A stretch of 34,132 nucleotides of DNA from a virus. Shown piece by piece: positions 5,367 to 32,607 of the stretch. The stretch spans positions 1-34,132 of IMG/VR virus record IMGVR_UViG_3300029448_000183, one strand, 5' to 3'. Position numbers and translations under genes: made by a program. Position 1 is the first letter of the stretch, and each line of letters opens with the position of its first letter. The notes under the pieces are model-generated. The model did not search any database, was not told the origin of the DNA, and saw nothing but the letters and a program-made list of their open reading frames with translations.

Positions 5367-7093
5367 GTGGCGGCAATCTCTTCGATGGAGCCGGCTATAC
5401 ACACTTCGTTTATAGTCACGGCCCCGGACACTTCGACCTCCCACTCCTGACCAACGACAGCTGGTAGCCTCATGATGGGCTCTCGCAATGTTCCGGTTGA
5501 GATCCCACTGGGTACCGTAGTTGTTTGAGTATACACATTATTAGCGTAGCTAATAGAGTAATGCGCTATTAAAGTTCCATCGGCCCATACTTTGACAACC
5601 ACTGGGTACCCTTCTGCATCAACGTGGACCCAACCCATACTTATGGGCTTAGGGGTGACGAACTTCTTAGATTTCCAAGTCAATGTCTGAGGTGTAGAGC
5701 CACCCCGATATTGAATGAGTTTGTTGCCCGAGATCAGATAGAGCTGCCCATCCTTCGGTTTGGTAAACCCACCATTAATTGCATTAGGGAAAGTCAGGGT
5801 CGACACTGCGGCTTCAGGACGTCTGGGGTCGTATACCCAGCCTGTAGTCCCGTTGGTAGCAACATACGTGCCTTCGTATTCAAAAGCCCGAATAGTGGTC
5901 GGATCAAAGTCCGTGTTCCATTGGTCTACTGAGATTATCCCACGAGTTACGATCTGCGCTTCGCCCCCCGTCACCGCAACCAAACCATCTGGCGCTGCAT
6001 AGAGAATATATTCGCCCATATCGACAACCGATCTTGCGTTGACACACGCTTGTGCGATCGGAATCTTAACGGCGGTCATAGCGCTAGGATCTACACCGGT
6101 TACAAAATAAGGTGACCCATTAGTGAGGCAGACTATGCCATTACCTGTAGCACCAATAGCTACGATATCGTCATCTAACGTAAGGCGATATTCGATGGGC
6201 CATGCATGAGGGAGGAATGCCTCTGACAAACACAACCGATTACCAAAAAAACCTGCAAAAACACCGTTAGCTAATGAGGTCAGACCTTTAAGGGCACCAC
6301 TAACAACCTGATTGGTGTTGGGATCAGTATAGCTATACAGCGCTGAGTCATCTGGGGGACCAATCCAGGTTGTGCTTGGGAGGATCTCACCAAGGTTGGC
6401 GGCGTCTGTTGTATCTGTGAAGGCAGTTGTCGCGAAAGGGACTTCCCCAACGAATTGAAACTGTGTGTTATCCGAACCCGTATTCGACCGATAGATACGT
6501 TTGAGGGCTGAAGACCCGAAGTTATAACCGCCTGATAAGGACGGCGTAGGGACCGTAACAGCTACCTGCTCGTCGTCCGTCAACTCAATCACTGTGCTTG
6601 CCGGGCTTGGCGGACCTTCTTCACCGAGATCCGTCACAAGTGTATACACATAAGACACATCATTAGGTGTGTCTGCTTCATTTGCTGTGCCCGATTTAAC
6701 AGTTGTTGGGGCCGCAGTTGGTGCTGGCACGCCCAACCTAAAACCATTAGCGGGGTAGTTGTCCGAAGACCCTGTAATCATCGACTGATAAGTACCGACC
6801 CTTGGATAGTCTTCGCCCGTCCAGTACAAACGTTTGAACTGATCGTTAGCTACAGGCCCTTTTACAGCCTTAACATCCTCCTCATCCCATTGCAGCCAAT
6901 GAGTATCATCGTAAAAAAACGCCGCTCGCCGAGCCGTACTAGCCAATGTAAGTGTGTCTGTTGCCCCATCTATCGGGACTAGGTTGCCAGCCTCAAAGTC
7001 TATGTTCTGAGCAGTTTGGGCAAAGTTATCAGCGAGGAGGCGAGGTGCTACTCCCGGCGCAATGCCACTAAACTCCGTCACCTTGAAGTACAT
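5363..7093 (-). CDS. Putative beta-propeller tail (nozzle-like) protein
   Basis: A 576-aa protein starting MYFKVTEFSGIAPGVAPRLLADNFAQTAQNIDFEAGNL, an opening often seen in structural proteins of marine short-tailed phages. AGGAG lies 7 nt upstream of the ATG. The sequence is a succession of beta segments (PYFVTGVDPSAM, EYILYAAPDGLVAVTGG, GWVYDPRRPEAAV, GQLYLISGNKLIQYRGG), which suggests a propeller. Known: tail nozzles of P22 (gp10) and T7 (gp12) are beta-propeller rings. Inferred: this could be the nozzle or a stabilising ring. It sits among fibre genes rather than beside the portal, so an adhesion-platform role is an alternative. I see no catalytic motif. Confidence 0.65.
   Translation of the reverse strand: MYFKVTEFSGIAPGVAPRLLADNFAQTAQNIDFEAGNLVPIDGATDTLTLASTARRAAFFYDDTHWLQWDEEDVKAVKGPVANDQFKRLYWTGEDYPRVGTYQSMITGSSDNYPANGFRLGVPAPTAAPTTVKSGTANEADTPNDVSYVYTLVTDLGEEGPPSPASTVIELTDDEQVAVTVPTPSLSGGYNFGSSALKRIYRSNTGSDNTQFQFVGEVPFATTAFTDTTDAANLGEILPSTTWIGPPDDSALYSYTDPNTNQVVSGALKGLTSLANGVFAGFFGNRLCLSEAFLPHAWPIEYRLTLDDDIVAIGATGNGIVCLTNGSPYFVTGVDPSAMTAVKIPIAQACVNARSVVDMGEYILYAAPDGLVAVTGGEAQIVTRGIISVDQWNTDFDPTTIRAFEYEGTYVATNGTTGWVYDPRRPEAAVSTLTFPNAINGGFTKPKDGQLYLISGNKLIQYRGGSTPQTLTWKSKKFVTPKPISMGWVHVDAEGYPVVVKVWADGTLIAHYSISYANNVYTQTTTVPSGISTGTLREPIMRLPAVVGQEWEVEVSGAVTINEVCIAGSIEEIAAT
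5539..5555. repeat. 17-bp palindrome, second copy of the motif at the capsid promoter
   Basis: TATTAGCGTAGCTAATA has 7-bp arms and a 3-bp centre. It lies inside the propeller-like gene, where on the coding strand it encodes the Ser-Tyr-Ala-Asn stretch. The same 17 bp occur, inverted, at 26959-26975 in the capsid promoter region. Confidence 0.6.
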
Positions 7094-12121: not shown

Positions 12122-12136
12122 ATTAGCTCCGCTAAT
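12122..12136. promoter_or_regulatory. Inverted repeat enclosing the ribosome-binding site of the 95-aa gene
   Basis: ATTAGC-TCC-GCTAAT on the plus strand. On the minus-strand transcript the centre and first arm base form GGAG, the Shine-Dalgarno for the TTG start at 12120. The 6-bp stem ends two bases before the giant gene's stop codon. A loop-embedded SD could tie translation of this gene to ribosomes clearing the end of the upstream gene. The arms resemble those of the palindromes at 5539 and 26957. Confidence 0.4.
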
Positions 12137-12137
12137 A

Positions 12138-15100
12138 TTACTGGATATTGTTTAGCACAGGAACAACTCTTTTGGCATCCCCATCAAAAACAAAGTCATC
12201 GAACATGTCGAATGCCGGAATGTTCGCTGTGAATGGTGCCGCCAGACCTTCATATGGGATAGCAGCTACGGTACCAACTGCGATCGAAGCGGGACCGAAT
12301 ATCCCTGAGCGATCTAGGATTTCCCAAGTGTATTCGCCACCATCCATATAGTTAGATTTAAATGTATACGGGGTTGCTTCGGAGAACGGTATGACAAGCT
12401 GCATGAGATACTTCTGCAGCTCACGCAGTTCTAATCCCATCATGGTCAGCGGGAACAACGTCGCGCCCAACATTATTGCCGGCATCGCGGCGTCTATCAT
12501 TGAACCGCCCTCAAGCCTCCGGGCTTTAGTTTCGTTGTAAACGCCACTAAGAACCGTTTTACCGAACGCGTATAGGTAAGACTTCAGGTGGAACAGAAGC
12601 TGGAAGTATGGGTTATTTGCCCATGAGGGACGGGTTGATGAATCCGGCCTAACTACTGATTCCTCAGCAAACCGCGCAATACCAGCAGCTACCTTCTTAC
12701 CAGCCTCAGTATCCATGTCCTGGTCAGAGGCTATCCAGTTGTTAACCTCCTCCCGTGTCAGGCCGAGCTCTTCTAGATAACGCTGTTCACGAGCCCCAAA
12801 ACCATCTTTTTGAGCTGTACTAATAATGAACTCGCGGCCCATACCAACTGCGAACGTACGCACAAAACGTGTGTACATAGTTAGGCCGGTATATCGGAAG
12901 AAATACATGTTGGCCCGGCGAGCCCAGCCATCCACCTGATCTTGTTCACCTAGCCCAATAAAGGCGTTTTCCATAGCTTCGCTTTGGACAACACCGACTG
13001 ATTCAGCAAACCTCCGCAACTCTGGTCCTGAGAAAGCCTCTTTTGCGACCGTTAATGCGTTCATTACGTTGCCGAACTCTTTACTCCTCGTAGCAATACC
13101 TGCGAAGTCGGTAGTCGACCCTACAGTTGCTAGCAGGAGTGTGGTGAAAACGGTGCTTACAAGGCCAACACTGTTAGCGCGGCGCATATTCTTACCAACA
13201 GAAACCTTGCCCAACATAGCGTGGATTGTGGTTTCAATTTCTGAATGAAACTCTTCGGGGATGTCCAACATCAACCCGGCGACCCTTGCATACCCACCCC
13301 TACGTTCAAACTCCACTTTGCGAGTTAGCGCATTTATATAGTTAATAAAGGCCACTCTTGGATCTAGGATAAATCCACTATCTCTAAGCGCCTCGGTAGA
13401 TACACCATCCAACGTACGTTGTAGCGATGGACTGCTGCCCGGGCTCAAGCGTGCCTTACGTGAAACAGTGTCCCAGTGTTCTTCTAATTTCGCCTGTATT
13501 GTTTCACTATCTGAACTGCTGTCCATCTCGTACAGCGGCGCGTTCAACAAATTATTCGGATACCTGTCTCGTAGAGCTTGTACCAAGTCTATCAAATCAA
13601 ACCCGTTAGACGGGTCGATAGCAGCCGAAATGATTTCGTTGAACTTATTGCGATCACCTGATTTGGAGGACCTATAATATTTTGCTAAGCCGAGCTGGCC
13701 AAGCGGCGAGTCATCAAACCTTGTATCGGTTATCTCGGGGTCACCGTCTGGTACATCAATCTCCTCAATATTGTTATTGAGGATATTGTCTCGCACATCC
13801 ATAGCGGCTTCTTGTGACATCCCATTGTCGACCAGGAACTGAACAAACTCATCTGGGCGGTCAGCTATCTGGGAGGTATCAATAGAACGAGGGAAGTAAT
13901 CTTTGCGTTTTCTAACTGCATAGATGATCTTGCCATCCTTACCAATTGTGTATGCGTGCGCCTCCTCTAAGAGGGCACGAATGGCTAAAGCATCTTTAGC
14001 AGCCTGTGTTGTTTCACCGCGCAACTGCTCACTTGTAATCAGCTCATTTTCTGCAAGCAAAAATGCATTTACGACACGTTCTGACTCAAACGCTTTATCA
14101 GGCGATGTGGAATCGAGACCAAAAATATCCCCGAACTTTTTTAGAAACTTACTGTTTTCTAAAGTGGCAGCTGTCAGAAATCCGAGCTCCCCGCCAGAGC
14201 CAGTCGTTTTATGGAATAGATCTGCTAGGTTTTTGCCGGCAGGCCCATGCTTCGCGTTCCGAAGGAAATCGTCAGCTGTTAACGCATACTTTGTGAAGGC
14301 CCGAGACGCACCACTATTATTCAAAATACCCTTGGCCGTATTGGTGATGCCGGCGAGAGTTTTTCTCGGCATCTTCTTACTGACATCTGATATGAGATCT
14401 TTTATTACGACCGACTGTAAAACCGTCTCAGTCTTCACAGTGTTGTTTTTATTAGCTTCGACTACGCCATCCATATAAGTCTTAAACACAGCGTTCTCGT
14501 CGAGCCGGTTACCTAGCGCTTTGTTAACTTGTTTAAAAAAGTTTTTAAGTTTTCGAGCAATCGCTTTGAAATAGTCTCGTGCCTCTTTTGATCCTTGCGC
14601 AGTTAACTTAGTGTTTTGAGCGCTTTTATAGACGTTGGCCGCAACTTGGTCGGCATACCATTCTTCAAAGCCGCGCACGTCTAGAGTGTATTGTGATGGA
14701 CTTTGTTCACCCTTCTTTTGTACATCGTCGAGATAGGCTTTCCAAAGTTTGGATTTGAGCCCGGGGTCGGCTTTGATCTTGGCGAACTCTTGTTGGAAAA
14801 GGTGGTGCCCTAATTCGTGAGCAACAATCGCGGCCACCTCTGCATCAGGGAGTTTTCCTGACTCTGATCTACTACCATCACTTATATCAAGGTCACGTAT
14901 AACGATGATGCTTTGCCTGCCGTTCGATACATAACGGCCTTTGACTGGGTTCTTACCCTTTGTCATAGCATCAATGGTTTCACTCAGGTCGCTGACCAAA
15001 CTTGGGTCATAATCTTTTACAGATCTCTTCAACTCCGAAACAGTGATGATCTCAACTGGGCTAACAAGACCCAGTCTTTTGGACGCCATGCCAATGATTC

Positions 15101-18100
15101 TCGAAGTCAGGTTACCAACTGAACCTTTTACGGTGATGGAAACTGGTTCGACCAGACCCCGAGGCCCAACCCCACGTCGAGGTTGGAATTTAGGCGCGGT
15201 ACGTCCTTTAGGCTTTTCAATATCAACCCCACCTTCAATGGACAGACGTGTCCACAAAAACGGAGTGTTATATTCGTCGGGGTCAACTTCCTGATAAACG
15301 GGTTCGAACACAACTTTTCGTGACCCAGGTCCCGCATCTTGTTTAACATTGTATTCTTCTATTGCTTCCCCCATTGGGGCAGTTAAGGATGTTCCGCGTA
15401 ACCGATCTGCTTTTGGAACCGTAACGTTAGTCTTCCGGCTTTTTACAATACGTAAAACTCTTGTATCAGTATCAGAGGGCATATCCTCAATTAAAAAATA
15501 CAACCTGTTTCTAGGCTTAACAGCGTTCTGTCGCTGGACAGCGTGGACCAGCTTAACTAGGCCAGCTATGTTGAGCTCGTCCACATACTCGGTGTAATTA
15601 TCTCGTACCTCTTGTGGGAGAGATTTAGTGAGTTCATCTAGGCGATTGATCAGTCGATTTCGGTGCTCTCTCTGCTCATCGCTAAGTTTGTCCTTGTAAT
15701 CAGGTCTGATATAAAAAGTTCTGCGCCTGTTATAGATCTTCTGCGTAGCTCTCTCTGCGGCCCGGTCATATTGCTCACCGGCCATATCCCCAGCTTTTAT
15801 AGCGGCTTCAGCAGGCTGCCGCAGACCGTCCTCGTCGCCTTCAATCTCCTGTTCAATATCATCAGGATCGACAGTGTTTTGGACATTGTGGTCCTTGTAA
15901 CTTTGCCTAGCTGACCGTTTCAATTCCTGAAGATCTTGGTAGCGGAACTCTTGCGCTAACACTGCGTTAACCTCGCTTGGTGTAGTGCCCTCTTTCTGTA
16001 GCTCTTTCCTCCTCCGGTTCTTATTGCTGTTAAACATATTTTCTGCCCGGGCCTCAGCGTCTTCCATACCCTTAACATCAGAACGTGCTTTTGCATCAGC
16101 CAGATCTGCTGCGGCAGGGCGTGGATCAGGTGTTTCGTAAAATACGTCCCACACAGATAAACCATCAGCAACAATTTCGGTTTTCAAAGCTTTCATGACA
16201 GCCGGCGTAAAGATCGAGGCTGTCGCAAGCTCACTTAGGGCGGCTCCATATTCGGCTTCTGTTATGTCCCCATTTACGAGCTCCTCATACAGAGTGCTTA
16301 TCTCGTAAAAGGCAAGATTTGCTAGGTCGACATCGCCTCTTGGTGTAGCGATCGTTATTTTAAAACCGTCCGCATACAACTCTTTAATAGCTGTAAACAG
16401 CCCCTGTCTTATAACCTGAGCCTGAGTCAGGCCCTCACCGACAAGTGCTTGATCAGTTGCAATGTTTAACTTGCGGCCCTCACCGGCAAGAACCCCCAAA
16501 CCTGTTACGGCTCTCCTGCCGTTTCCTTCTGGCTTACCTGTAAGCCGTTGCTCCATCTTTAGGGGAGTACCCGACTTAGTTTCACCACCATATTGAGCTG
16601 GTATCGTAAGAGTGAATTCACCTTTAGCGTCTGCACGGTTATCCATGCCACGCACTTGAGTCAGAACATTCCGTATAAAGCGTTCAGTCTTCTGAGCGAA
16701 AGTATTATCACTCTCCTCGAACTCCATGATCTCTATACGACCATCGTCTGAAAACCTCAGACTGTAGCTCTTAGTATTATTTTGGGACTCCTCAACAAGT
16801 TCGCGGAAACGCTTCATTGCTGACAACGTCATGAACTCTTTGAAGTCCTCTAAGCTTGCAGACGTCTGATTAAATTCTTCACCTTCCGCTAACTCCTGAT
16901 TATCTAGGATCTGTTTGGTGGTGCGATAGTCCTTATTAAACTGGACCTTCTCTTTAGGCTTGAGGGGATATTGCCCATCATTGATCTGATACGAAGCAGG
17001 TTCACCTTGTGAGGTCTGTGCCACCACAGCTTCTGGCGCATCGAACTCGTTCATACCCATTGATATCTCAGGTTGATCAGCTCTGGTTTCGTCCGCCTCC
17101 ACCCGGTTTTTGGACGCGTTATATTCGTCTACAGCTCCCAACATGGCTGCGCCCATAGCAGTTTCATTGGTTGGAGGTTCAAAGCCTATCGCGACTTCTT
17201 CTTCTACAGATTCCTGAAACGGGCTCGCCGGAAGTGGGGGCTCACTTAAAGGTGTGTCATCTCTTTCAGGTCGGGTTATGGATGGACCCCGTGAAGTTCG
17301 GGCCAAGCGTAATGCACGGTCCTTTTTCCCATCGGGATCAACTGCGTTAAGAACCTTAATCAGTTCCGCTTTGGGGAAGTTAGCTTGGTAATATTGCGCC
17401 TCTGCAATATAGGCTTCTATCCCGGCAATAAGGGTGCGGAAACCTTCAGGGGCATTCTCCTTCTGCTCTAACAGATAGGCTCGCAACCCACGCCCACGCT
17501 CAGAACGATCGTTAAGAAACGTGTTGATTATCGACAACACGTCTGGTGTCAGGTGACGAGTTGGGTCTGGGGCAGGTGTAGGTGTAGGTGCTGGAGTAGG
17601 AGCGGGCGCAGGCGTAGGTTCAGGTGCAGGTGCAGTTTCATTTCTCATATCACGAGTGATATTAGGCGTAGGCGTCTCGGGCTGCTTTGGCTGCTTTGGC
17701 TGCTTTGGCTGCTTTGGCTCTGATTGTTTTTCACTATCAAGCCGCTGTTTACGCCGGCTTAAGACTTCTTCTGGTGAAAACAACTCTATTTGCTGGCCGG
17801 GGAGCGCAACGCTTTGTGCCGCTTGTTCAGCTGCCAACTGCCCAGCCTCATTGGTCACTTCTTCGCTGACTACGCTGCCGTCAGGATTACGAACCTGTAC
17901 AACTCGATCACCATCTACAGGTTTGGTGCCGCTATAACCAAGCACTGTTGTTAAGGATTCGTCGCTAGCGCCGGCAGCAATAACCTCTTCAACAATGTTT
18001 CGGCTTTTGGAAATAATCGTGCCGCGACCGGGGATCATTGCACCCACAATGCCACCGCCTAAATCCACCACCTGGTTAGGTTCGGCATTTTCCATAGCAG

Positions 18101-19859
18101 TAGGAACTGTAGAGCTTCCTTCAGGAACCCAGACACCGGCTTTCGAACTGCGTTGGTCAATCATGTTAGCCATCTGGGCTTCAAGATCGCCTTGGGGCTC
18201 TTCTGTGGGGCCTGCTAGAGACTCATCGGTAACACCAAGATCAGATGAATCTATCTCAGCATTCACATCGGCTTCGGTTTTCCGCTTAAGCATCTCGCCG
18301 GCTTGTTCGCCAATCGAACTTATCGTGTTGCTAACGCCCGAATTGATGGCTGAGTAAGCAGCGGCGGGTGTAGATGCGACACCGCCGAACGCGCCGCCGG
18401 CAAAAAAGCCAGCAAAAGCAGCTTGGCCTAAACGTAGTTGGGCTTCGGCTGCTGTGTATTCGTCGTCGATAGCAAAACGCTGTGCAACCATTGCACCTTC
18501 TTGGATGGCCTCAGTAGCGCCTTCGGTCGCCGCACTGGTGCCAGTCGCTTTAGCGAGGTCTTTGCTGAGGCGAGTGAATACACCCTCCCCAGACTCCCGA
18601 GCCGCTTTCTTCTTAGCCAGCTTTAGTACATTTGAAGCGACAAGCGCCTCACCGCCCACGCCAATTGCGGCTAGCGGGGCACCGGCTAATAAGGACTGCA
18701 GCGCTCTCTCCGGCGTTAGGTCTACACCAGCTTCGTCAAATTCCGAATAAACTGCAGCACTCATCATTGGGTATTCAGTGCTGATCGCACCGGCTGCTGC
18801 ACCGCGTTTAAAGGAAAGATTGTCCCTGACGAGGCGATACATACCGGATAAAGCCTCTTCTTCGACTTCATCCAACGCTTCACCACGTAGCTTTTTCGCT
18901 GCTAAATCTTTACTGAGTCGAGTGACAGCTGCCTTACCTGCAACCGTCAAACCTGTCTTTGCTACTGCGGCTGTACCACCTGTGGCCACTGCAGCAACAA
19001 TAGTCTGTGCAGCCGCCGGGGTTATCTGTCCGACACTGAGAATTACCTGATTAAGAAAACCGTCGAAAGTAGGCTCGGTTAAAAACTCGTCGAACTGTTG
19101 GATACCAGCCGAAAGTGCTGCAGAGGTGGCTTGCTCAACCCGCGCCTTCTCCAGCGCGTAGTTAGCGCCCTCGGTATCACCTAACAGGTTCCTACCAAGC
19201 GACTCAAATAGCGCCATATCTTGACGGAACTGAGTGTCGCCAATTTCGACACCACGTTGGAAAGTTTCGAAAAAACCATCTGGTGCTATGGCAGGAGACT
19301 CTCTCGGGTCTGCCACCTGTGGCACTAGGCCAGCCAGCAGTTCGTCATCAAACTGCCTTTGTGCAGCTGTAATCCGAGACATGTTCTCAAAACTCAGCTC
19401 TTGTGGCTCCTCCTGTGGAGGTGGTGTTTGGCGAGTGGGCTGTGTTTGGCGAACAGGTTGATTGCCCGAGTTAGCTGTGTTGACGCGCTGACGAAGCTCG
19501 CCAGCCGTGATGTTGCGGCCCGACTCCATCTTTGCCATTGCGGCCAGGACAGTCGCCCGCGTGTCTGGGTCAGCCAGATTGATCTGGTCATCTGCGCCAA
19601 TGCCAGTCTGACCGGCCACATAGTTTATATAACCCTCTGTGTCGTTCTCGCTTGGCGGAGCAAATGTGGAAATGGTGTCGCGTAGTGTGTTTATACCGCG
19701 CTCACCATATGAATTTAGAACACGGTCTGCTGCCCTATACCCATAGTTCTCATCACTAAAGCTAGAGAATCCACTGTCTTGGCCTGTCTGCCCTAGCCAA
19801 TTGTTAGATTCGTTGTACCTAACATTGAGAGGGTTATTAGTCCTATCGGCAACGGCCAT
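12138..19859 (-). CDS. Giant internal virion protein: lysozyme-like N-terminus, metallopeptidase motif, membrane segments (T7 gp16-like role)
   Basis: This 2573-aa protein is the largest here. Residues 1-120 (NNPLNVRYNESNNWLGQTG, GINTLRDTISTFAPPSENDTEGYINYVAG) match the lysozyme-like family often annotated 'structural protein P5', a peptidoglycan-cleaving domain. Hydrophobic, Ala/Gly-rich segments follow at about 267-304, 390-412 and 474-504. Disordered repeats follow: PAPTP-type (about 741-762) and four KQP units (about 714-727). Near residue 1680, VAHELGHHLFQQEF is a zinc-metallopeptidase HExxH motif like those of phage polyvalent proteins. Further membrane-like stretches lie at about 2220-2253 and 2457-2483 near the C-terminus. 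It ends a 143-214-199-748-2573 aa series resembling T7 genes 13-16. T7 gp16 (about 1300 aa) also begins with a transglycosylase and is ejected to form a channel. Inferred: ejected, membrane-spanning conduit protein, possibly self-processing. GAGG precedes the ATG. Confidence 0.82.
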   Translation of the reverse strand: MAVADRTNNPLNVRYNESNNWLGQTGQDSGFSSFSDENYGYRAADRVLNSYGERGINTLRDTISTFAPPSENDTEGYINYVAGQTGIGADDQINLADPDTRATVLAAMAKMESGRNITAGELRQRVNTANSGNQPVRQTQPTRQTPPPQEEPQELSFENMSRITAAQRQFDDELLAGLVPQVADPRESPAIAPDGFFETFQRGVEIGDTQFRQDMALFESLGRNLLGDTEGANYALEKARVEQATSAALSAGIQQFDEFLTEPTFDGFLNQVILSVGQITPAAAQTIVAAVATGGTAAVAKTGLTVAGKAAVTRLSKDLAAKKLRGEALDEVEEEALSGMYRLVRDNLSFKRGAAAGAISTEYPMMSAAVYSEFDEAGVDLTPERALQSLLAGAPLAAIGVGGEALVASNVLKLAKKKAARESGEGVFTRLSKDLAKATGTSAATEGATEAIQEGAMVAQRFAIDDEYTAAEAQLRLGQAAFAGFFAGGAFGGVASTPAAAYSAINSGVSNTISSIGEQAGEMLKRKTEADVNAEIDSSDLGVTDESLAGPTEEPQGDLEAQMANMIDQRSSKAGVWVPEGSSTVPTAMENAEPNQVVDLGGGIVGAMIPGRGTIISKSRNIVEEVIAAGASDESLTTVLGYSGTKPVDGDRVVQVRNPDGSVVSEEVTNEAGQLAAEQAAQSVALPGQQIELFSPEEVLSRRKQRLDSEKQSEPKQPKQPKQPKQPETPTPNITRDMRNETAPAPEPTPAPAPTPAPTPTPAPDPTRHLTPDVLSIINTFLNDRSERGRGLRAYLLEQKENAPEGFRTLIAGIEAYIAEAQYYQANFPKAELIKVLNAVDPDGKKDRALRLARTSRGPSITRPERDDTPLSEPPLPASPFQESVEEEVAIGFEPPTNETAMGAAMLGAVDEYNASKNRVEADETRADQPEISMGMNEFDAPEAVVAQTSQGEPASYQINDGQYPLKPKEKVQFNKDYRTTKQILDNQELAEGEEFNQTSASLEDFKEFMTLSAMKRFRELVEESQNNTKSYSLRFSDDGRIEIMEFEESDNTFAQKTERFIRNVLTQVRGMDNRADAKGEFTLTIPAQYGGETKSGTPLKMEQRLTGKPEGNGRRAVTGLGVLAGEGRKLNIATDQALVGEGLTQAQVIRQGLFTAIKELYADGFKITIATPRGDVDLANLAFYEISTLYEELVNGDITEAEYGAALSELATASIFTPAVMKALKTEIVADGLSVWDVFYETPDPRPAAADLADAKARSDVKGMEDAEARAENMFNSNKNRRRKELQKEGTTPSEVNAVLAQEFRYQDLQELKRSARQSYKDHNVQNTVDPDDIEQEIEGDEDGLRQPAEAAIKAGDMAGEQYDRAAERATQKIYNRRRTFYIRPDYKDKLSDEQREHRNRLINRLDELTKSLPQEVRDNYTEYVDELNIAGLVKLVHAVQRQNAVKPRNRLYFLIEDMPSDTDTRVLRIVKSRKTNVTVPKADRLRGTSLTAPMGEAIEEYNVKQDAGPGSRKVVFEPVYQEVDPDEYNTPFLWTRLSIEGGVDIEKPKGRTAPKFQPRRGVGPRGLVEPVSITVKGSVGNLTSRIIGMASKRLGLVSPVEIITVSELKRSVKDYDPSLVSDLSETIDAMTKGKNPVKGRYVSNGRQSIIVIRDLDISDGSRSESGKLPDAEVAAIVAHELGHHLFQQEFAKIKADPGLKSKLWKAYLDDVQKKGEQSPSQYTLDVRGFEEWYADQVAANVYKSAQNTKLTAQGSKEARDYFKAIARKLKNFFKQVNKALGNRLDENAVFKTYMDGVVEANKNNTVKTETVLQSVVIKDLISDVSKKMPRKTLAGITNTAKGILNNSGASRAFTKYALTADDFLRNAKHGPAGKNLADLFHKTTGSGGELGFLTAATLENSKFLKKFGDIFGLDSTSPDKAFESERVVNAFLLAENELITSEQLRGETTQAAKDALAIRALLEEAHAYTIGKDGKIIYAVRKRKDYFPRSIDTSQIADRPDEFVQFLVDNGMSQEAAMDVRDNILNNNIEEIDVPDGDPEITDTRFDDSPLGQLGLAKYYRSSKSGDRNKFNEIISAAIDPSNGFDLIDLVQALRDRYPNNLLNAPLYEMDSSSDSETIQAKLEEHWDTVSRKARLSPGSSPSLQRTLDGVSTEALRDSGFILDPRVAFINYINALTRKVEFERRGGYARVAGLMLDIPEEFHSEIETTIHAMLGKVSVGKNMRRANSVGLVSTVFTTLLLATVGSTTDFAGIATRSKEFGNVMNALTVAKEAFSGPELRRFAESVGVVQSEAMENAFIGLGEQDQVDGWARRANMYFFRYTGLTMYTRFVRTFAVGMGREFIISTAQKDGFGAREQRYLEELGLTREEVNNWIASDQDMDTEAGKKVAAGIARFAEESVVRPDSSTRPSWANNPYFQLLFHLKSYLYAFGKTVLSGVYNETKARRLEGGSMIDAAMPAIMLGATLFPLTMMGLELRELQKYLMQLVIPFSEATPYTFKSNYMDGGEYTWEILDRSGIFGPASIAVGTVAAIPYEGLAAPFTANIPAFDMFDDFVFDGDAKRVVPVLNNIQ
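17574..17636. repeat. Imperfect hexamer repeats encoding a Pro/Ala/Thr linker
   Basis: GGTGYA-like hexamers repeat about ten times. On the minus strand they encode alternating Pro-Ala and Pro-Thr pairs, a flexible linker in the giant virion protein. Confidence 0.75.
17680..17719. repeat. 9-bp tandem repeat encoding KQP units
   Basis: Four identical copies of GGCTGCTTT followed by a partial copy. On the coding strand they give Lys-Gln-Pro repeats in the giant protein's disordered region. Such an array is prone to slippage and likely varies in copy number between relatives. Confidence 0.9.
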
Positions 19860-19868
19860 TTTGAACCT

Positions 19869-22115
19869 CTATCTTTGTAATGCTTCTTGGCCGGCCTCAA
19901 TTGTCTGCGCGAAATATTCGAGCATTTGAGTGCCTAATTCACTGCCCAGTTCCGATGCGGAGATTTCGTTTTCGGTGCGCTGGCCACTAGGCCCCAAGAT
20001 CTCGATTCTTTTGAGCGCTCCTCCTCTATTCCGTATTATCTGGAATCGCTCTGGTCCAAAATCAACGCCGATTCTGGCCCCTTCAGGTTTAAAGAAATCG
20101 GCGAAAAACCCGAAAACGCCATCATTCTCTTTTGATGCCAAGTCAATTACGTATGTCCCGATCGTATCCATAGCAGAATCGAATAGTGCTAACCTTCTTT
20201 CGCTGTCCCTTTCAGATCGAAGGGCCTGTATCTGGCTATCAAGTTTGAACAAAGCTGTATTATGTTCGGGGCTTCCCACCTCGTTATTAGTTAGGCCAGC
20301 TTTAATCTCTACAGAGTTTCCTCTCAAATCAGTTTTGAAAGCTTCATTGTCCGTATCTTGCTTATCAGCAAGCTTAGCTTGGCCCAGGTCCAGGTTCCCT
20401 GCTGCAATTTGATTTCGTGTTGCCGCAGCATTGGCTTGTGCGACATTGGTTGGTGAGGTCGAGAACGACCCGGTTCGCATGTAGTTACCGAAACGGTCGA
20501 GGATGGTTGATTGGACCGCTGGATCGCCCGCATAAATGGCGGCTGTCGCGTACATAATTGCACGTTTGTCAGCATCATCCACTAGACGGGCAACGTCTTC
20601 AGGCGTTCGGACACCTAGCTCTTGTGCCCGACGTGCGCCGTAACTGATATCAGCTTGTGTTGGTTGTGGCTTGTCTTGCAACATGCGGCGCACGTCCGCA
20701 ATCGCAGCATCCATATTAGTATCGGGGGCAGGTGCAGATGGAGCTGATGTCGATACAGCTGTTGTGGTTTCGGGGGCTTCTTCAGGAGGTGGTGACATCA
20801 TACCCACCCGCCCTGTAGTAGGCTGGAAACCAACCCCGAAATTCTCAATAGCGCTCTCGGCGTCCCGTAACCTTCGCTCTGCCGCTCTTAATTGCCTAAC
20901 CCTTCGCTGAGCCGAAACGGTGTTCTGTTCTTCAGTCAAAGCGGCTTGCGCTGCATCACGCTCCTCTACAAGCGCCGCATAAGTCGGGCTGCCCCTCTGC
21001 TGTACATTATTTGAACTAGCCTCAGTCTGAGAAGAACTAGAGCCGGCGCGAAGCCGAGCCAAATCCCGGTCGATTGCCGCTACCAACCTGTTTCGCCTTC
21101 TAGAGTTTGACGTATCCTCTAGTAGTGCTGCCCGCTCCGCTTCTAACCGCGCTATTTCTGACGCTTCTTCAGGAGAGATACTCATTTGCTGGGCTGTAGT
21201 GCTAGCCTCTTCTAATTCGGCTTCAAGCGCATTCTCTCTTTGGATATTGCCACGGTTTTCGGGTAAATCGCGGACACGGGCTAGATCAGCTTCAATGTCT
21301 TCTATTGAACGCCCGGTTGGGGATGGGCCTTCGGGGGCTGCTGTTGTCTGCCCAATGGTCGGCGCTTGGGGAGCAGCTTCCGGTTGACCATACTGTTCAA
21401 AGTGCTGGGTTAAATCGAGTCCCTGCTCTTCAGCCGCTTCGAGCAACTCTGGATAGGTCATGTTAGAGAATGCTTCGTACACGGTGCGCCCTGCATTAGG
21501 ATCTGCATCGGTTATACCATCGAGGTCATCCAGCAGATCTTGACGAAGTCTGCCCAATTTTACCTGTGCATTTACGGCTCTCTGTGTAAGTACCTGCTGA
21601 GAGCCAGGATTGACCTGAACAGCGTTGGCCAACATAGAGTTCAAACGTGACTGAGCCACGTCGTTTATCTCAGCCGCTGAGAATTGCCGCACCGGATCAT
21701 CGGGATCAGACGTTGCATTCTCAGTAATTGGTCTGCCACCTGTTCCTAGAAGTACGTATTGTCCTTTGCTTGGGCTGGCACCAATACCTGCAAATTCAAA
21801 GTCAGGGTTGTTGGGGTTTCTAAAATAATTACTGTCCGACCTAAAAAACGCTTGTTGTTGATCTGGCCGCCAGCTGGTTACATCAGAAACCTGATAACCG
21901 CCGCCCTCTACCGGAGTGATTAGGCCCCGCGACAGTAGATCGTTAAATATCTCAGCGTCTTCCATGTTTCTTATTTCACGGGTTGCAGCCTGATTAGCCA
22001 GTTGCCGCGATCTGGTGACCTGAAGCTGGTCATCACGCTGGAGACGTCGATCTTCACCGCCCATCGCGTAGTCAAGGGCACCCAGTATTGACTGGCCTAC
22101 TGTTGATCGAACCAT
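19869..22115 (-). CDS. Internal virion protein, T7 gp15-like by size and position
   Basis: A 748-aa largely helical protein with AGGAG 6 nt before the ATG. The N-terminus is rich in Gln/Arg (RRLQRDDQLQVTRSRQLANQAATREIRNMEDAEIF). A disordered Pro/Ala/Thr region lies around 240-270, and long charged coiled coils (about 270-430; IEADLARVRDL, ARLEAERAALLED, ERDAAQAALTEEQNTVSAQRRVRQL) are followed by a second Pro-rich spacer (about 435-470). A compact C-terminal part holds TIGTYVIDLASKENDGVFGFFADFF. There is no direct sequence proof of homology to T7 gp15. The argument is length (gp15 is about 747 aa), helical content and position between a gp14-like and a gp16-like gene. Likely role: periplasmic part of the DNA-ejection channel. 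Confidence 0.72.
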   Translation of the reverse strand: MVRSTVGQSILGALDYAMGGEDRRLQRDDQLQVTRSRQLANQAATREIRNMEDAEIFNDLLSRGLITPVEGGGYQVSDVTSWRPDQQQAFFRSDSNYFRNPNNPDFEFAGIGASPSKGQYVLLGTGGRPITENATSDPDDPVRQFSAAEINDVAQSRLNSMLANAVQVNPGSQQVLTQRAVNAQVKLGRLRQDLLDDLDGITDADPNAGRTVYEAFSNMTYPELLEAAEEQGLDLTQHFEQYGQPEAAPQAPTIGQTTAAPEGPSPTGRSIEDIEADLARVRDLPENRGNIQRENALEAELEEASTTAQQMSISPEEASEIARLEAERAALLEDTSNSRRRNRLVAAIDRDLARLRAGSSSSQTEASSNNVQQRGSPTYAALVEERDAAQAALTEEQNTVSAQRRVRQLRAAERRLRDAESAIENFGVGFQPTTGRVGMMSPPPEEAPETTTAVSTSAPSAPAPDTNMDAAIADVRRMLQDKPQPTQADISYGARRAQELGVRTPEDVARLVDDADKRAIMYATAAIYAGDPAVQSTILDRFGNYMRTGSFSTSPTNVAQANAAATRNQIAAGNLDLGQAKLADKQDTDNEAFKTDLRGNSVEIKAGLTNNEVGSPEHNTALFKLDSQIQALRSERDSERRLALFDSAMDTIGTYVIDLASKENDGVFGFFADFFKPEGARIGVDFGPERFQIIRNRGGALKRIEILGPSGQRTENEISASELGSELGTQMLEYFAQTIEAGQEALQR

Positions 22116-25563: not shown

Positions 25564-25596
25564 AAAAAGGACGGCCCCCCCATGAAGGGGGGGCCG
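25564..25596 (-). terminator. Strong intrinsic terminator after the capsid gene
   Basis: A perfect 10-bp GC stem (25572-25581 with 25587-25596, CGG plus seven C against seven G plus CCG) with a 5-nt loop is followed on the minus strand by TCC and five T. It begins 12 bases after the capsid stop codon. It should cap a short, abundant capsid message while allowing some read-through into the connector genes. Confidence 0.9.
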
Positions 25597-25608: not shown

Positions 25609-26757
25609 TTACTGCGCGGTGTCGAGACAGATCACGCCGAAATCCTGGACGCTTCCAGAGACGTCAGAGTTATACTTAGGCTTACGGAGGCCAAAGATTT
25701 TGCCTACCGAGATACCGGACTGGTTACCATAGTCGAAGGTGTCTTCGACAATTTCAGGTAGACCAATGTCAGCCATCGCCAGAGCCTGAGCGCCACAGAA
25801 GAGGGCACGTGCCCCGTCAACGTCTGCGTTTGCGCCCCACTTGTATCCAGCTTCACCAGCGTTGGAAGAAGTACCAGTTGCTGCGCCAGAAGTGTTAAAC
25901 ACGTGGCGGAACTCATGGACCATAACGCCGTCGACCATCAAGCTAGCAGACCCTGAGAAGAGCGAGTTGGCTTCGCCACGTACGCCTGCGTTACGGACGT
26001 TTGCAAGGAAGTCAGCATCGAGCTTCAAGGCAGCCATTTGCTGAGGAGTAACAAACAGGTGGAAGACTTCTTGGTTGCCTGCACCACGGATACCACGAAT
26101 GTAGTTATCTTTGGCGTAAGCTTTAAGCTCCACGATACAGCGGTAAGAGATCGTATCCGCAGCCTCAATGTTGTTTGTACCACTTGCAACAAGCCCGCTT
26201 GTAGCGTCCCAACGACGGTGACGATCTGCGGTTGGGTCAGACACGTCTGAAGCAAACTCTAGATCTACGAGCTCATGACCGGTAGTCGCAGAAGTCGGAC
26301 GCAGGCCACCGTTGTTTTTGTTCGTGTAGGCAACACCTGACAGGGTCAGGAATGCCAGCTGGTCACAACGGTCTGCCATTGCATAAGCAAGAGCGTCACG
26401 GCTCTGCTCACGGAAGTTTACGACGGTCTTCTGGTCGGCCATCCGGCCTGCGATGCGGTTAGCAAAGCGAAGCTGATCAAGCTCGATGGAGATGTCGTAC
26501 GCGCGGAGGGCTTCTTCGTTGCCTTCCAGAGTATGATCACCAGTGATACCGTCACCAGTCATGTCGGCAAGCAACGTGATGTTTGCTTTTGTGCCTTTAG
26601 CAGACTTAGTCAGCTCAGTGACGCGTTGGACCATTGCGTTTGAGCCGGTTCCTGCGAACTGGTTGATGAAAGATTGGTTACGTGCGACACGCCAAAAGTC
26701 GCGACTCCAAGCCTGAAGCTGGGGGTCGGAAAGCGTGCCAAAATTAGTAAGTGCCAT
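25609..26757 (-). CDS. Major capsid protein, N4-gp56 type
   Basis: A 382-aa protein. MALTNFGTLSDPQLQAWSRDFWRVARNQSFINQFAG, then MVQRVTELTKSAKGTKANITLLADMTGDGITGDHTLEGNEEALRAYDISIELDQLRFANRIAGRMADQKTVVNFREQSRDALAYAMADRCDQLAFLTLSG, is the pattern of the N4 gp56-like capsid family (HK97 fold; DUF4043-type). The C-terminal half contains FHLFVTPQQMAALKLDADF and MVDGVMVHEFRHVF. Length fits the family. AAAAGGAG lies 7 nt before the ATG. It has its own upstream promoter and structured leader and a dedicated terminator, as expected for the most abundant virion protein. It directly follows the scaffold gene. Confidence 0.9.
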   Translation of the reverse strand: MALTNFGTLSDPQLQAWSRDFWRVARNQSFINQFAGTGSNAMVQRVTELTKSAKGTKANITLLADMTGDGITGDHTLEGNEEALRAYDISIELDQLRFANRIAGRMADQKTVVNFREQSRDALAYAMADRCDQLAFLTLSGVAYTNKNNGGLRPTSATTGHELVDLEFASDVSDPTADRHRRWDATSGLVASGTNNIEAADTISYRCIVELKAYAKDNYIRGIRGAGNQEVFHLFVTPQQMAALKLDADFLANVRNAGVRGEANSLFSGSASLMVDGVMVHEFRHVFNTSGAATGTSSNAGEAGYKWGANADVDGARALFCGAQALAMADIGLPEIVEDTFDYGNQSGISVGKIFGLRKPKYNSDVSGSVQDFGVICLDTAQ

Positions 26758-26952
26758 TGCTGGGCTCCTTTTACATGGGCTAAGTTTTCGCAGCCGCGTT
26801 AATGGAGCGGCAAATCCGTTCCCCGTATCGTGAGGCGACGTATTTGCAGTTGCTTTACGAGCAATGACCTCGGCACATTTAACGCCCGTGCAGGCGAAAA
26901 CGGAGTTTTATGTGTCCGACCACAACCTGATATCGCACAGATAAGCGAGATC
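26758..26952 (-). promoter_or_regulatory. Structured 5' leader of the capsid mRNA (predicted)
   Basis: This gene-free stretch can fold, on the minus strand, into: a 5' hairpin (26929-26936 with 26945-26952, 7 of 8 pairs); a three-way junction closed by 26870-26878 with 26910-26919 (nine pairs, one bulge), whose two inner hairpins (26883-26896 and 26897-26909) abut exactly; a hairpin at 26850-26864 (TTGCT/AGCAA); and one at 26793-26811 (GCCGC/GCGGC). The last can be replaced by a pairing of 26778-26781 with 26792-26795 closer to the ribosome-binding site. The 5' hairpin begins at the transcription start expected from the promoter just upstream. Folding is by eye only. Confidence 0.55.
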
Positions 26953-26957
26953 TTTCT

Positions 26958-26986
26958 ATATTAGCTACGCTAATATAAATTGACAA
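26958..26986 (-). promoter_or_regulatory. Sigma70-like capsid promoter overlapped by a palindrome
   Basis: On the minus strand, TTGTCA (26986-26981) and TAATAT (26963-26958) are separated by 17 bases. The expected start is near 26951. The perfect inverted repeat 26957-26977 (9-bp arms, centre TAC) covers the spacer end and the -10 box, the usual place for an operator. It lies between scaffold and capsid genes. Confidence 0.6.
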
Positions 26987-27014
26987 GGGGTATGTGGATA
27001 ACACGCCCCTTGTC
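26982..27014. promoter_or_regulatory. 9-bp inverted repeat with a perfect DnaA box in the loop
   Basis: GACAAGGGG (26982-26990) and CCCCTTGTC (27006-27014) enclose a 15-base loop that contains TGTGGATAA (26993-27001), the complement of the consensus DnaA box TTATCCACA. It lies nine bases after the scaffold stop codon and its inner end overlaps the -35 box of the capsid promoter. As RNA it is a hairpin without a U-run, so it may be a processing or attenuating element rather than a terminator. Confidence 0.5.
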
Positions 27015-27022
27015 GGTAATTC

Positions 27023-28042
27023 CTAGACAATATCGCCCCGCAGACGCTTCAATGTTGCATCAGGTAGCGCGTTGAACTCGTCCTCGCTCATACGCATGAC
27101 ATCAATCGGCACAGTGTCCCGCGTGCGGGTGCCCTCACCCTCTAATGCTGGCGGCTGAGCGTTAGCAGCTTTGATTTTCTTCGATATTGTTGATTTTTTC
27201 TTTACTGCTAGATCAGGATTTGGCGCTGTCTCCAGTGCACTGTCCAAATCGTAGGACTTCACAACAAAACGAACAGCCTTTGACAGGGCTTCGACCGCGT
27301 TATGGCCTTTGGTGATGAAGGCGTCGCGCAGCTCAACCACTTCGTTAGTATATTCTTCGTTGAATTGGTCAGAACTGCGGTCAAAAACTGGGAAGTCGGC
27401 CTCAACAGCGGCGGCGGCTTGCTGCAAAGCGGTGGCAACATGCGAATTTGAGTTCGTTGCCGCCATTTTTTGCGTCATCTCGAACTCTATCTGGGCTTTT
27501 TCTGCCGCCCGGATCTCTTTTCGCAGGGTCATGGCCTTTTGAGGCTCACCGTCTAACACAAATTGCTGGTATTCCAGCTCTTTTGCGTCGAAATCGTACT
27601 CATCTGGTGCTGCTTCCGCCTCTGGTTGGCTAGCTTTTAGGGCATCTAGCTGCTTTTGGAGGGCTTTTTGCTTAGCTAGTACTTCATCCAGCCGGGATTT
27701 GGGGACCATGGGCTGCTTACGTCGCTGCTTTGGTCGCTCTTCGGGCTCGGGTTCAGCGTTTTGTACTTCCTCTGCGCCTTCGGTGAGGGCGGACTCCGCC
27801 TCCTCCGGGGCTTCGTCGTCGGGTTCTGCTTGTTCAGCTTCTGCAGGAGCTGTTTCGGCCTCAACTTCTTCCTCCACTTCTACAGTCTCCTCGACTGCTT
27901 CTGCTTCTACCTCTGTCTCGGACTCCGTTTCAGGTGCAACAGCTTCTACCTCTTCACCCAATCCAAAGTTCAGATCTACACCCTCGGGTGATTCAATTGA
28001 ATCAGAGCCCGGCATACCGTCCATTAGAGCGGTTTCAGACAT
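27023..28042 (-). CDS. Scaffolding protein
   Basis: A 339-aa protein between portal and capsid genes with AAGGAG 5 nt before the ATG. The first ~100 residues are extremely Glu-rich and disordered (EVEAEAVEETVEVEEEVEAETAPAEAEQAEPDDEAP). A basic KQRRKQPMVPKSRLDEVLAKQKALQKQLDAL coil follows at about 103-133, then long helices (KAMTLRKEIRAAEKAQIEFEMTQKM) and a basic/helical C-terminus (VKKKSTISKKIKAA, MRMSEDEFNALPDATLKRLRG). Acidic head, central coils and a C-terminal capsid-binding helix are typical of scaffolds of P22/N4-like heads. It directs procapsid assembly and is lost before packaging ends. No protease motif is visible. Confidence 0.85.
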   Translation of the reverse strand: MSETALMDGMPGSDSIESPEGVDLNFGLGEEVEAVAPETESETEVEAEAVEETVEVEEEVEAETAPAEAEQAEPDDEAPEEAESALTEGAEEVQNAEPEPEERPKQRRKQPMVPKSRLDEVLAKQKALQKQLDALKASQPEAEAAPDEYDFDAKELEYQQFVLDGEPQKAMTLRKEIRAAEKAQIEFEMTQKMAATNSNSHVATALQQAAAAVEADFPVFDRSSDQFNEEYTNEVVELRDAFITKGHNAVEALSKAVRFVVKSYDLDSALETAPNPDLAVKKKSTISKKIKAANAQPPALEGEGTRTRDTVPIDVMRMSEDEFNALPDATLKRLRGDIV

Positions 28043-32349: not shown

Positions 32350-32593
32350 TTAGTTTTCCGAGGTTAGGATCGAGATGGACAAAGACGGGTTGTTTACTTG
32401 AATCTAGTCTGTTGGCAATAGATTCGATGTACGTCGTTATTTGTTCTTGGTCAAATCCATGGGACAACATGATCTCCAAACTTTTGTCGTAGTCATATGC
32501 CAGTACTTCGTCGCCACTGGCGGTCCACGCTGTTCCAACAACAGCGTCTTCTAGACCTTCTAATGAATACAGGGTTACGTATTTATTAGCCAT
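32318..32593 (-). CDS. Small acidic protein of unknown function
   Basis: A 91-aa acidic protein: MANKYVTLYSLEGLEDAVVGTAWTASGDEVLAYDYDKSLEIMLSHGFDQEQITTYIESIANRLDSSKQPVFVHLDPNLGKL. The central LEIMLSHGFDQEQITTYIESIAN looks like a helical pair. AGGA lies 11 nt before the ATG. It ends 32 bases inside the small-terminase frame. I recognise no family. Its place between HNH nuclease and TerS suggests a packaging accessory, but nothing else supports that. Confidence 0.7.
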   Translation of the reverse strand: MANKYVTLYSLEGLEDAVVGTAWTASGDEVLAYDYDKSLEIMLSHGFDQEQITTYIESIANRLDSSKQPVFVHLDPNLGKLSEYQEDFTLH

Positions 32594-32607
32594 ACTAATA
32601 TTTTTCC

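Follow-up and report, generated by a model that had tools for sequence, protein, structure and literature searches.

Does the long gap in front of the major capsid protein gene of this virus hold a dedicated RNA element, and if so, which fold does it adopt and what could it do? We analyzed the locus in a 34,132 nt stretch of viral DNA (IMGVR_UViG_3300029448_000183, here referred to as the window) and in its relatives. The capsid gene (phrog_334 major head protein, E 1.4e-87) is located on the minus strand at 25609-26757, so that the leader RNA is the reverse complement of 26758-26957; all features of the leader described below lie on the minus strand. The gap is unusually long, as stated in the original prediction. 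It comprises 265 nt between the end of the upstream ORF (27023) and the start codon (26757), approximately 195 nt of which separate the predicted transcription start from the start codon.

A sigma70-like promoter (TTGTCA-17-TAATAT) was found at 26958-26986, and the related leaders carried a promoter at the same distance in all cases (114/114 versus approximately 7 expected after shuffling). From this promoter, transcription is predicted to start near 26951, directly at the first helix. Given the constant distance, the transcript is predicted to begin at the first pseudoknot of the leader, here named PK-A. The whole leader element ahead of the capsid gene spans 26951-26758 and includes the Shine-Dalgarno sequence GGAGC at 26764-26768. 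Behind the gene, an intrinsic terminator is located at 25572-25596, and a terminator-like hairpin was present at this place in 88 of 107 relatives, compared to 3 after shuffling. Based on the conserved promoter and terminator, the capsid gene looks like a short unit of its own, composed of promoter, pseudoknot leader, capsid gene and terminator.

Some further elements were observed around the promoter and elsewhere. The dyad ATTAG-N5-CTAAT occurs in four exact copies in the window (26960-26974, 5540-5554, 12122-12136 and 32585-32599) and in one copy with a single mismatch (19924-19938), the chance expectation with up to one mismatch being 0.8. At the capsid promoter the dyad spans the spacer and overlaps the -10 box in an operator-like manner, and 62 of 114 relatives carry it without mismatch. 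The copy at 32585, which overlaps a start codon, may be coding sequence. The inverted repeat GACAAGGGG..CCCCTTGTC at 26982-27014, just 5' of the promoter, is probably the terminator of the upstream gene in scaffold position, ORF 27023-28042. An ORF of 2573 aa (12138-19859) showed weak similarity to endolysin/tape-measure and virion structural families.

Folding energies of the window alone did not set the leader apart. On the coding strand its minimum free energy was -58.9 kcal/mol compared to a mean of -56.0 kcal/mol for shuffled sequences (z -0.71), and including the start of the capsid gene led to a z of -0.47 against dinucleotide shuffles; the leader was thus no better than shuffled sequence, and judged by the folding-energy test set in the original prediction the claim would fail. 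The plus strand of the region, which is the non-transcribed strand, folded somewhat better (z -1.73).

The structure was judged by comparison with relatives. Searching viral contigs with the capsid protein gave at least 597 related capsid loci in the first scan, among them at least 80 with capsids of 82-90% identity, and further scans added more. After removal of duplicates 114 non-identical leaders of related capsid genes remained, out of which 54 diverse leaders were aligned without structural information (alignment A1). The architecture of the leader was constant although the upstream gene differed between contigs, and all 114 leaders have one core of 165 nt in common, which corresponds to 26789-26951 in the window (covariance model match of 133 bits, the window being part of the seed). 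Capsid relatives of 74-80% identity from genome collections matched the full model as well (L445, L446, L447 and L453; 77-150 bits); the match in L450 was weak (E 2.4e-5) and those in L449 and L452 were borderline.

Seven nested helices were found within the core. The hairpin P2 (26942-26938 / 26929-26925; in total 26925-26942) carries (A/G)CGAUA in its loop and showed double changes in 6/6 pairs. It is directly followed by the hairpin P3 (26924-26921 / 26914-26911), which was paired in 100% and had double changes in 3/4 pairs. The hairpins P4 (26896-26892 / 26887-26883) and P5 (26872-26869 / 26861-26858) belong to the same covarying set. P6 (26846-26838 / 26819-26811; 26811-26846) encloses the inner hairpin P6a (26835-26832 / 26824-26821) with the loop ACGAUAC and double changes in 3/3 pairs. 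The last hairpin, P7 (26811-26807 / 26797-26793; 26793-26811), had a core that was 99.4% paired. The 35 pairs of these helices were paired in 95.9% of A1. Double changes affected 22 of the 35 pairs and amounted to 240 cells versus a mean of 73 after shuffling, and the covariation score was 0.376 versus 0.149 for shuffled alignments and at most 0.08 when the strands were slid by 1-3 columns. Using a tree-based null, in which the substitutions of each column were re-placed on the tree, the strongest pairs of P2 and P3 exceeded every simulated pair, and P6a reached an E of 0.025. Between P7 and the Shine-Dalgarno sequence many relatives (e.g. L015 and L410) had a variable additional hairpin, here named P8, whose differences look compensatory. 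P8 is absent from the window (26776-26788), and in most relatives no clean U tract follows it.

The loops of these hairpins pair with flanking single strands, resulting in at least four H-type pseudoknots, PK-A to PK-D. In PK-A (26933-26948) UCGC at 26948-26945 pairs with GCGA in the P2 loop (26936-26933). Over the relatives, pairing of the first UCGY with RCGA of this loop was found as UA 92, CG 13 and UG 9 (tree-based p 0.0025, the lowest obtainable). The hairpin originally placed at +1 is thus present as letters and four of its pairs, UCGC/GCGA, are real, but they belong to a pseudoknot as its second stem. PK-A also took the place of P1, a closing helix of two pairs (CG/CG) considered for the first module; the third pair of PK-A covaries. 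PK-B (with P3: 26901-26924) joins the loop CGGA (26918-26915) to UCCG (26904-26901) across UAAAAC. Here the majority of leaders carried CGU/ACG, the window CGGA/UCCG and L029 CGAU/AUCG, the strand following UAAAA; the third pair had a p of 0.0012 in a phylogeny-aware test after structural extraction. In PK-C (with P4: 26873-26896) the loop GCAC (26891-26888) pairs with GUGC (26876-26873), the strand just 5' of P5, across UUAAAU, and the third pair varied as GC 68, AU 29 and GU 16 (p 0.0025, the lowest obtainable). In PK-D (with P5: 26850-26872) the P5 loop pairs with GCG after UUAAU; variants included CGUU/AACG, and the window probably uses UUG (26864-26862) with CAA (26852-26850), a register that is uncertain. 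Over the relatives PK-D was paired in 95.7% of cells with a p of 0.0025, again the lowest obtainable. The four pseudoknots alone were paired in 91.8%, compared to 11-44% when slid. Nested helices and pseudoknots together (47 pairs) reached 94.8% with 274 double-change cells versus 83 after shuffling. Additionally, 26840-26838 can pair with the loop at 26831-26829 in a PK-A-like manner; this UCGU/P6a-loop pairing is in competition with P6, and a pseudoknot form of P6 is not proven.

This fold differs from the one initially proposed, a compact three-way junction closed by a nine-pair stem. In the window the stem can be drawn when one A is left bulged (TCGG-A-CACAT / ATGTGCCGA), but it is not conserved in the relatives. 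Within the 54 diverse leaders it was at chance level (56.6% of cells paired versus 58.2% after shuffling; covariation 0.039 versus 0.048), and it competes with the strongly kept helices P3 and P5. The junction is therefore unsupported; what covaries is a tandem array of H-type pseudoknots.

The pairs also indicate on which strand and in which form the element is selected. Within the nested helices 135 G-U pairs were found versus 10 A-C combinations. Since G-U corresponds to an A-C mismatch on the other strand, it is the RNA of mRNA sense that is under pairing selection. The core lengths of the relatives were spread over all three frames, and the core is therefore not coding. Several unpaired letters were kept in A1 without being required by pairing, namely AUA of the loops, the UWAAA linkers and CUCC of the P7 loop. 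Wherever a conserved 15-mer of the leader and the capsid gene were located on one contig, the 15-mer was on the same strand and 70-99 nt before the start codon (224/224). Among 16 pattern hits without a capsid gene, six were true copies on contigs ending there and ten had no model match. Exactly one copy of the motif was present in each of 12 viral records (12/12) of up to 59 kb. That the leader of the capsid mRNA holds a dedicated RNA element is thus borne out by conservation, compensatory changes, strand-specific G-U pairs, the conserved promoter at the first helix and the exclusive linkage to the capsid gene.

P3, P4 and P5 with their tails represent three copies of one unit, consisting of a CG-stem[loop]stem-CG hairpin, U(U/A)AA(A) and a loop-pairing strand of 3-4 nt. 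A descriptor of this unit recognized 73/73 dissimilar leaders of the group of the window, usually with three units per leader, and additionally 52/68 AP1-like and 15/25 KLEP18-like capsid leaders. At least three Watson-Crick pairs between loop and tail were formed by 66% of the units in the group of the window, 88% in AP1-like and 82% in KLEP18-like leaders, compared to 26%, 46% and 38%, respectively, when tails were exchanged between sequences. For at least four pairs the two distant groups reached 38% and 53% versus 11% and 13% with exchanged tails. Among named phages, AP1 (Paracidovorax oryzae) and KLEP18-1 (Paracoccus marcusii) carry the unit before the capsid gene, and in KPP25, the nearest named phage by capsid (53%), the descriptor found no unit. 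The full-length model R1 gave no significant match in AP1-like and KLEP18-like capsid loci; the pseudoknot unit is therefore common to them, whereas the whole 165-nt architecture is not.

Two observations concern the distant leaders themselves. AP1-like leaders (L166-L245) carry a long covarying hairpin with the loop CACCC, TCACC or CGCCC approximately 100-200 nt 5' of the capsid start, and the complementary GGGTG, GGTGA or GGGCG is located just downstream, which suggests another pseudoknot at the 5' end; the permutation support was marginal (61% versus 37%). In KLEP18-1 an HNH endonuclease gene (L086, 2208-2786) directly precedes the capsid leader in opposite orientation.

To our analysis the leader is a previously undescribed RNA. 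The Rfam 15 covariance models gave no match at the curated gathering score in the window or in 14 relatives and only weak chance-like matches at relaxed thresholds, and a DNA blast of the leader against phage records gave no match. A literature search on pseudoknots, structured RNAs and capsid leaders in phages, with most subscription-journal papers outside its scope, revealed no description. Rows of H-type pseudoknots within one RNA occur in tmRNA, in TMV-like 3' UTRs and in FMDV 5' UTRs. These belong to other organisms and other places in the RNA, and no sequence relation to them was found; the present array lies in a phage mRNA leader. Capsid leaders of phages such as that of T7 gene 10 carry simple 5' hairpins on the most abundant phage mRNA, with a terminator behind the gene. 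The present leader is alike in being a structured leader on the most abundant phage mRNA with a terminator behind the gene, but differs from these simple hairpins in being a conserved covarying pseudoknot array. We regard it as a structured phage mRNA leader of a known sort but of a new family, a tandem pseudoknot array on a capsid gene.

The closest precedent in function is the leader of T4 gene 32, in which a pseudoknot followed by UUAA(A) repeats serves as autogenous translational operator: gp32 docks on the pseudoknot, spreads over the repeats and blocks its own translation (PMC3014915, PMC535899). A T4 review describes it as perhaps the sole viral pseudoknot that serves translational autoregulation (PMC3014915). 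Both leaders have an H-type pseudoknot in the 5' leader of a dsDNA-phage mRNA upstream of the ribosome-binding site (PMC3014915, PMC535899). Runs of the UUAA(A)/UAAA kind stand 3' of the pseudoknot in T4, between it and the start codon and overlapping the ribosome-binding site; in the capsid leader UWAAA follows each unit hairpin but inside the array, as linkers in the pseudoknots. The capsid leader also differs in having at least four tandem pseudoknots starting at the predicted 5' end, and it precedes a major head protein gene (phrog_334) instead of the gene of a single-strand-binding protein.

Our preferred interpretation is that the leader acts in cis as a post-transcriptional control element of the capsid mRNA, most likely as a protein-bound translational operator, to which we give a probability of roughly 40%. 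The array begins at the predicted 5' end of the capsid transcript and is followed by P7, whose loop is complementary to the Shine-Dalgarno sequence. The pseudoknots would act as docking site for a putative RNA-binding factor, most likely a phage protein that reports the need for capsid. Candidates are unassembled, free capsid protein and, by analogy with T4 gene 32, a protein of the single-strand-binding kind. Docking would shift the P6/P7 end between two states, with the Shine-Dalgarno sequence either masked by the P7 loop or free, and the fold would at the same time protect the 5' end of the capsid mRNA. In the window GCUCC of the P7 loop (26808-26804) is complementary to GGAGC (26768-26764), and the CC/GG complementarity (CUCC versus GGAG) was present in 112/112 scorable relatives. 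Covariation in the flanking positions was unconvincing in these 112 relatives (mean run 5.46 versus 5.29 after shuffling), and masking of the ribosome-binding site by the P7 loop appears plausible. P6 and P7 overlap in one to three nucleotides, for which they compete, and the pairs of either helix have tree-based support, so that a small switch is possible; with so few shared nucleotides the switch may be trivial. One might also expect a capsid mRNA to call for activation and protection instead of repression, which speaks against an operator.

A second reading is a stabilizer and enhancer that acts without ligand. Here the 5' array would block 5'-end-dependent decay (RppH, RNase E) and hold the ribosome-binding site open, leading to a long-lived and heavily translated capsid mRNA, in keeping with the need for large capsid amounts. 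The predicted start of transcription at PK-A, the terminator after the gene in most relatives and an A/U-rich stretch before the Shine-Dalgarno sequence in many of them (short in the window) are consistent with this role, which we regard as a serious but minority possibility. A simple hairpin would do for it, however, and the kept loop and linker letters and the three like pseudoknot units over diverged phages ask for more than stability. Of the two readings, we favour the operator. An effect on transcription is improbable. A leader attenuator, or an RNA that modifies the polymerase for processive antitermination as HK022 put or EAR do, would be well placed at the transcript start, ahead of a terminator and of approximately 23 kb of co-oriented late genes, and P8 near the start codon of many relatives could be counted in its favour. 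On the other hand, the conserved terminator right after the capsid gene argues for a unit ending there, P8 is missing in the window and mostly lacks a clean U tract in relatives, and no Rfam family matched.

Even less probable is a trans-acting RNA, either a processed small RNA or a packaging or assembly RNA like phi29 pRNA, which merely happens to be transcribed ahead of the capsid gene. The leader is highly folded, similar to pRNA in size and linked to a structural gene, but in the window neither a conserved terminator nor a processing site separates the RNA from the start codon, the terminase looks like an ordinary large subunit, and the strict placement before the start codon suggests action in cis. 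The preQ1-I riboswitch is an H-type pseudoknot with a short stem, a short loop-derived second stem and an A-rich third loop. The units share the short stem, the loop-derived second stem and the A-rich third loop, and the array ends near a potential anti-Shine-Dalgarno hairpin. A small-molecule riboswitch of preQ1-I-like mini pseudoknots is nevertheless quite unlikely, as the units are tandem copies whose loops differ in both length and sequence and show no obvious invariant binding pocket, and as no Rfam riboswitch model, that of the preQ1-I aptamer included, matched even at E up to 10. The least credible reading is an element at the DNA level, such as a packaging or recombination site or a hairpin promoter, with dyads that only resemble RNA. 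Hairpins can exist in single-stranded DNA too, but the strand asymmetry of G-U and A-C in the helices largely refutes this reading, and a double-stranded promoter is located just upstream.

With the operator as preferred reading, a wider proposal can be made, although we consider it rather doubtful: tandem H-type pseudoknots before the major capsid gene would form a new RNA family spread widely among the tailed phages that have this type of capsid, and would act as a capsid-level sensor, by which unassembled capsid protein, or some other protein related to the virion, adjusts how its own mRNA is translated. If true, no earlier case of RNA-mediated feedback on the supply of capsid would be known from dsDNA phages. 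The leader is common, as seen from the number of related capsid loci, it is found in a large group of mostly marine phages and it is tied to the most abundant virion protein. The covariance model can be used as a marker of these phages, and the conserved fold lends itself well to RNA structure determination. Since the unit also precedes the capsid gene of the cultivable phages AP1 and KLEP18-1, the general question of how dsDNA phages adjust the supply of capsid to assembly at the post-transcriptional level can be tested directly.
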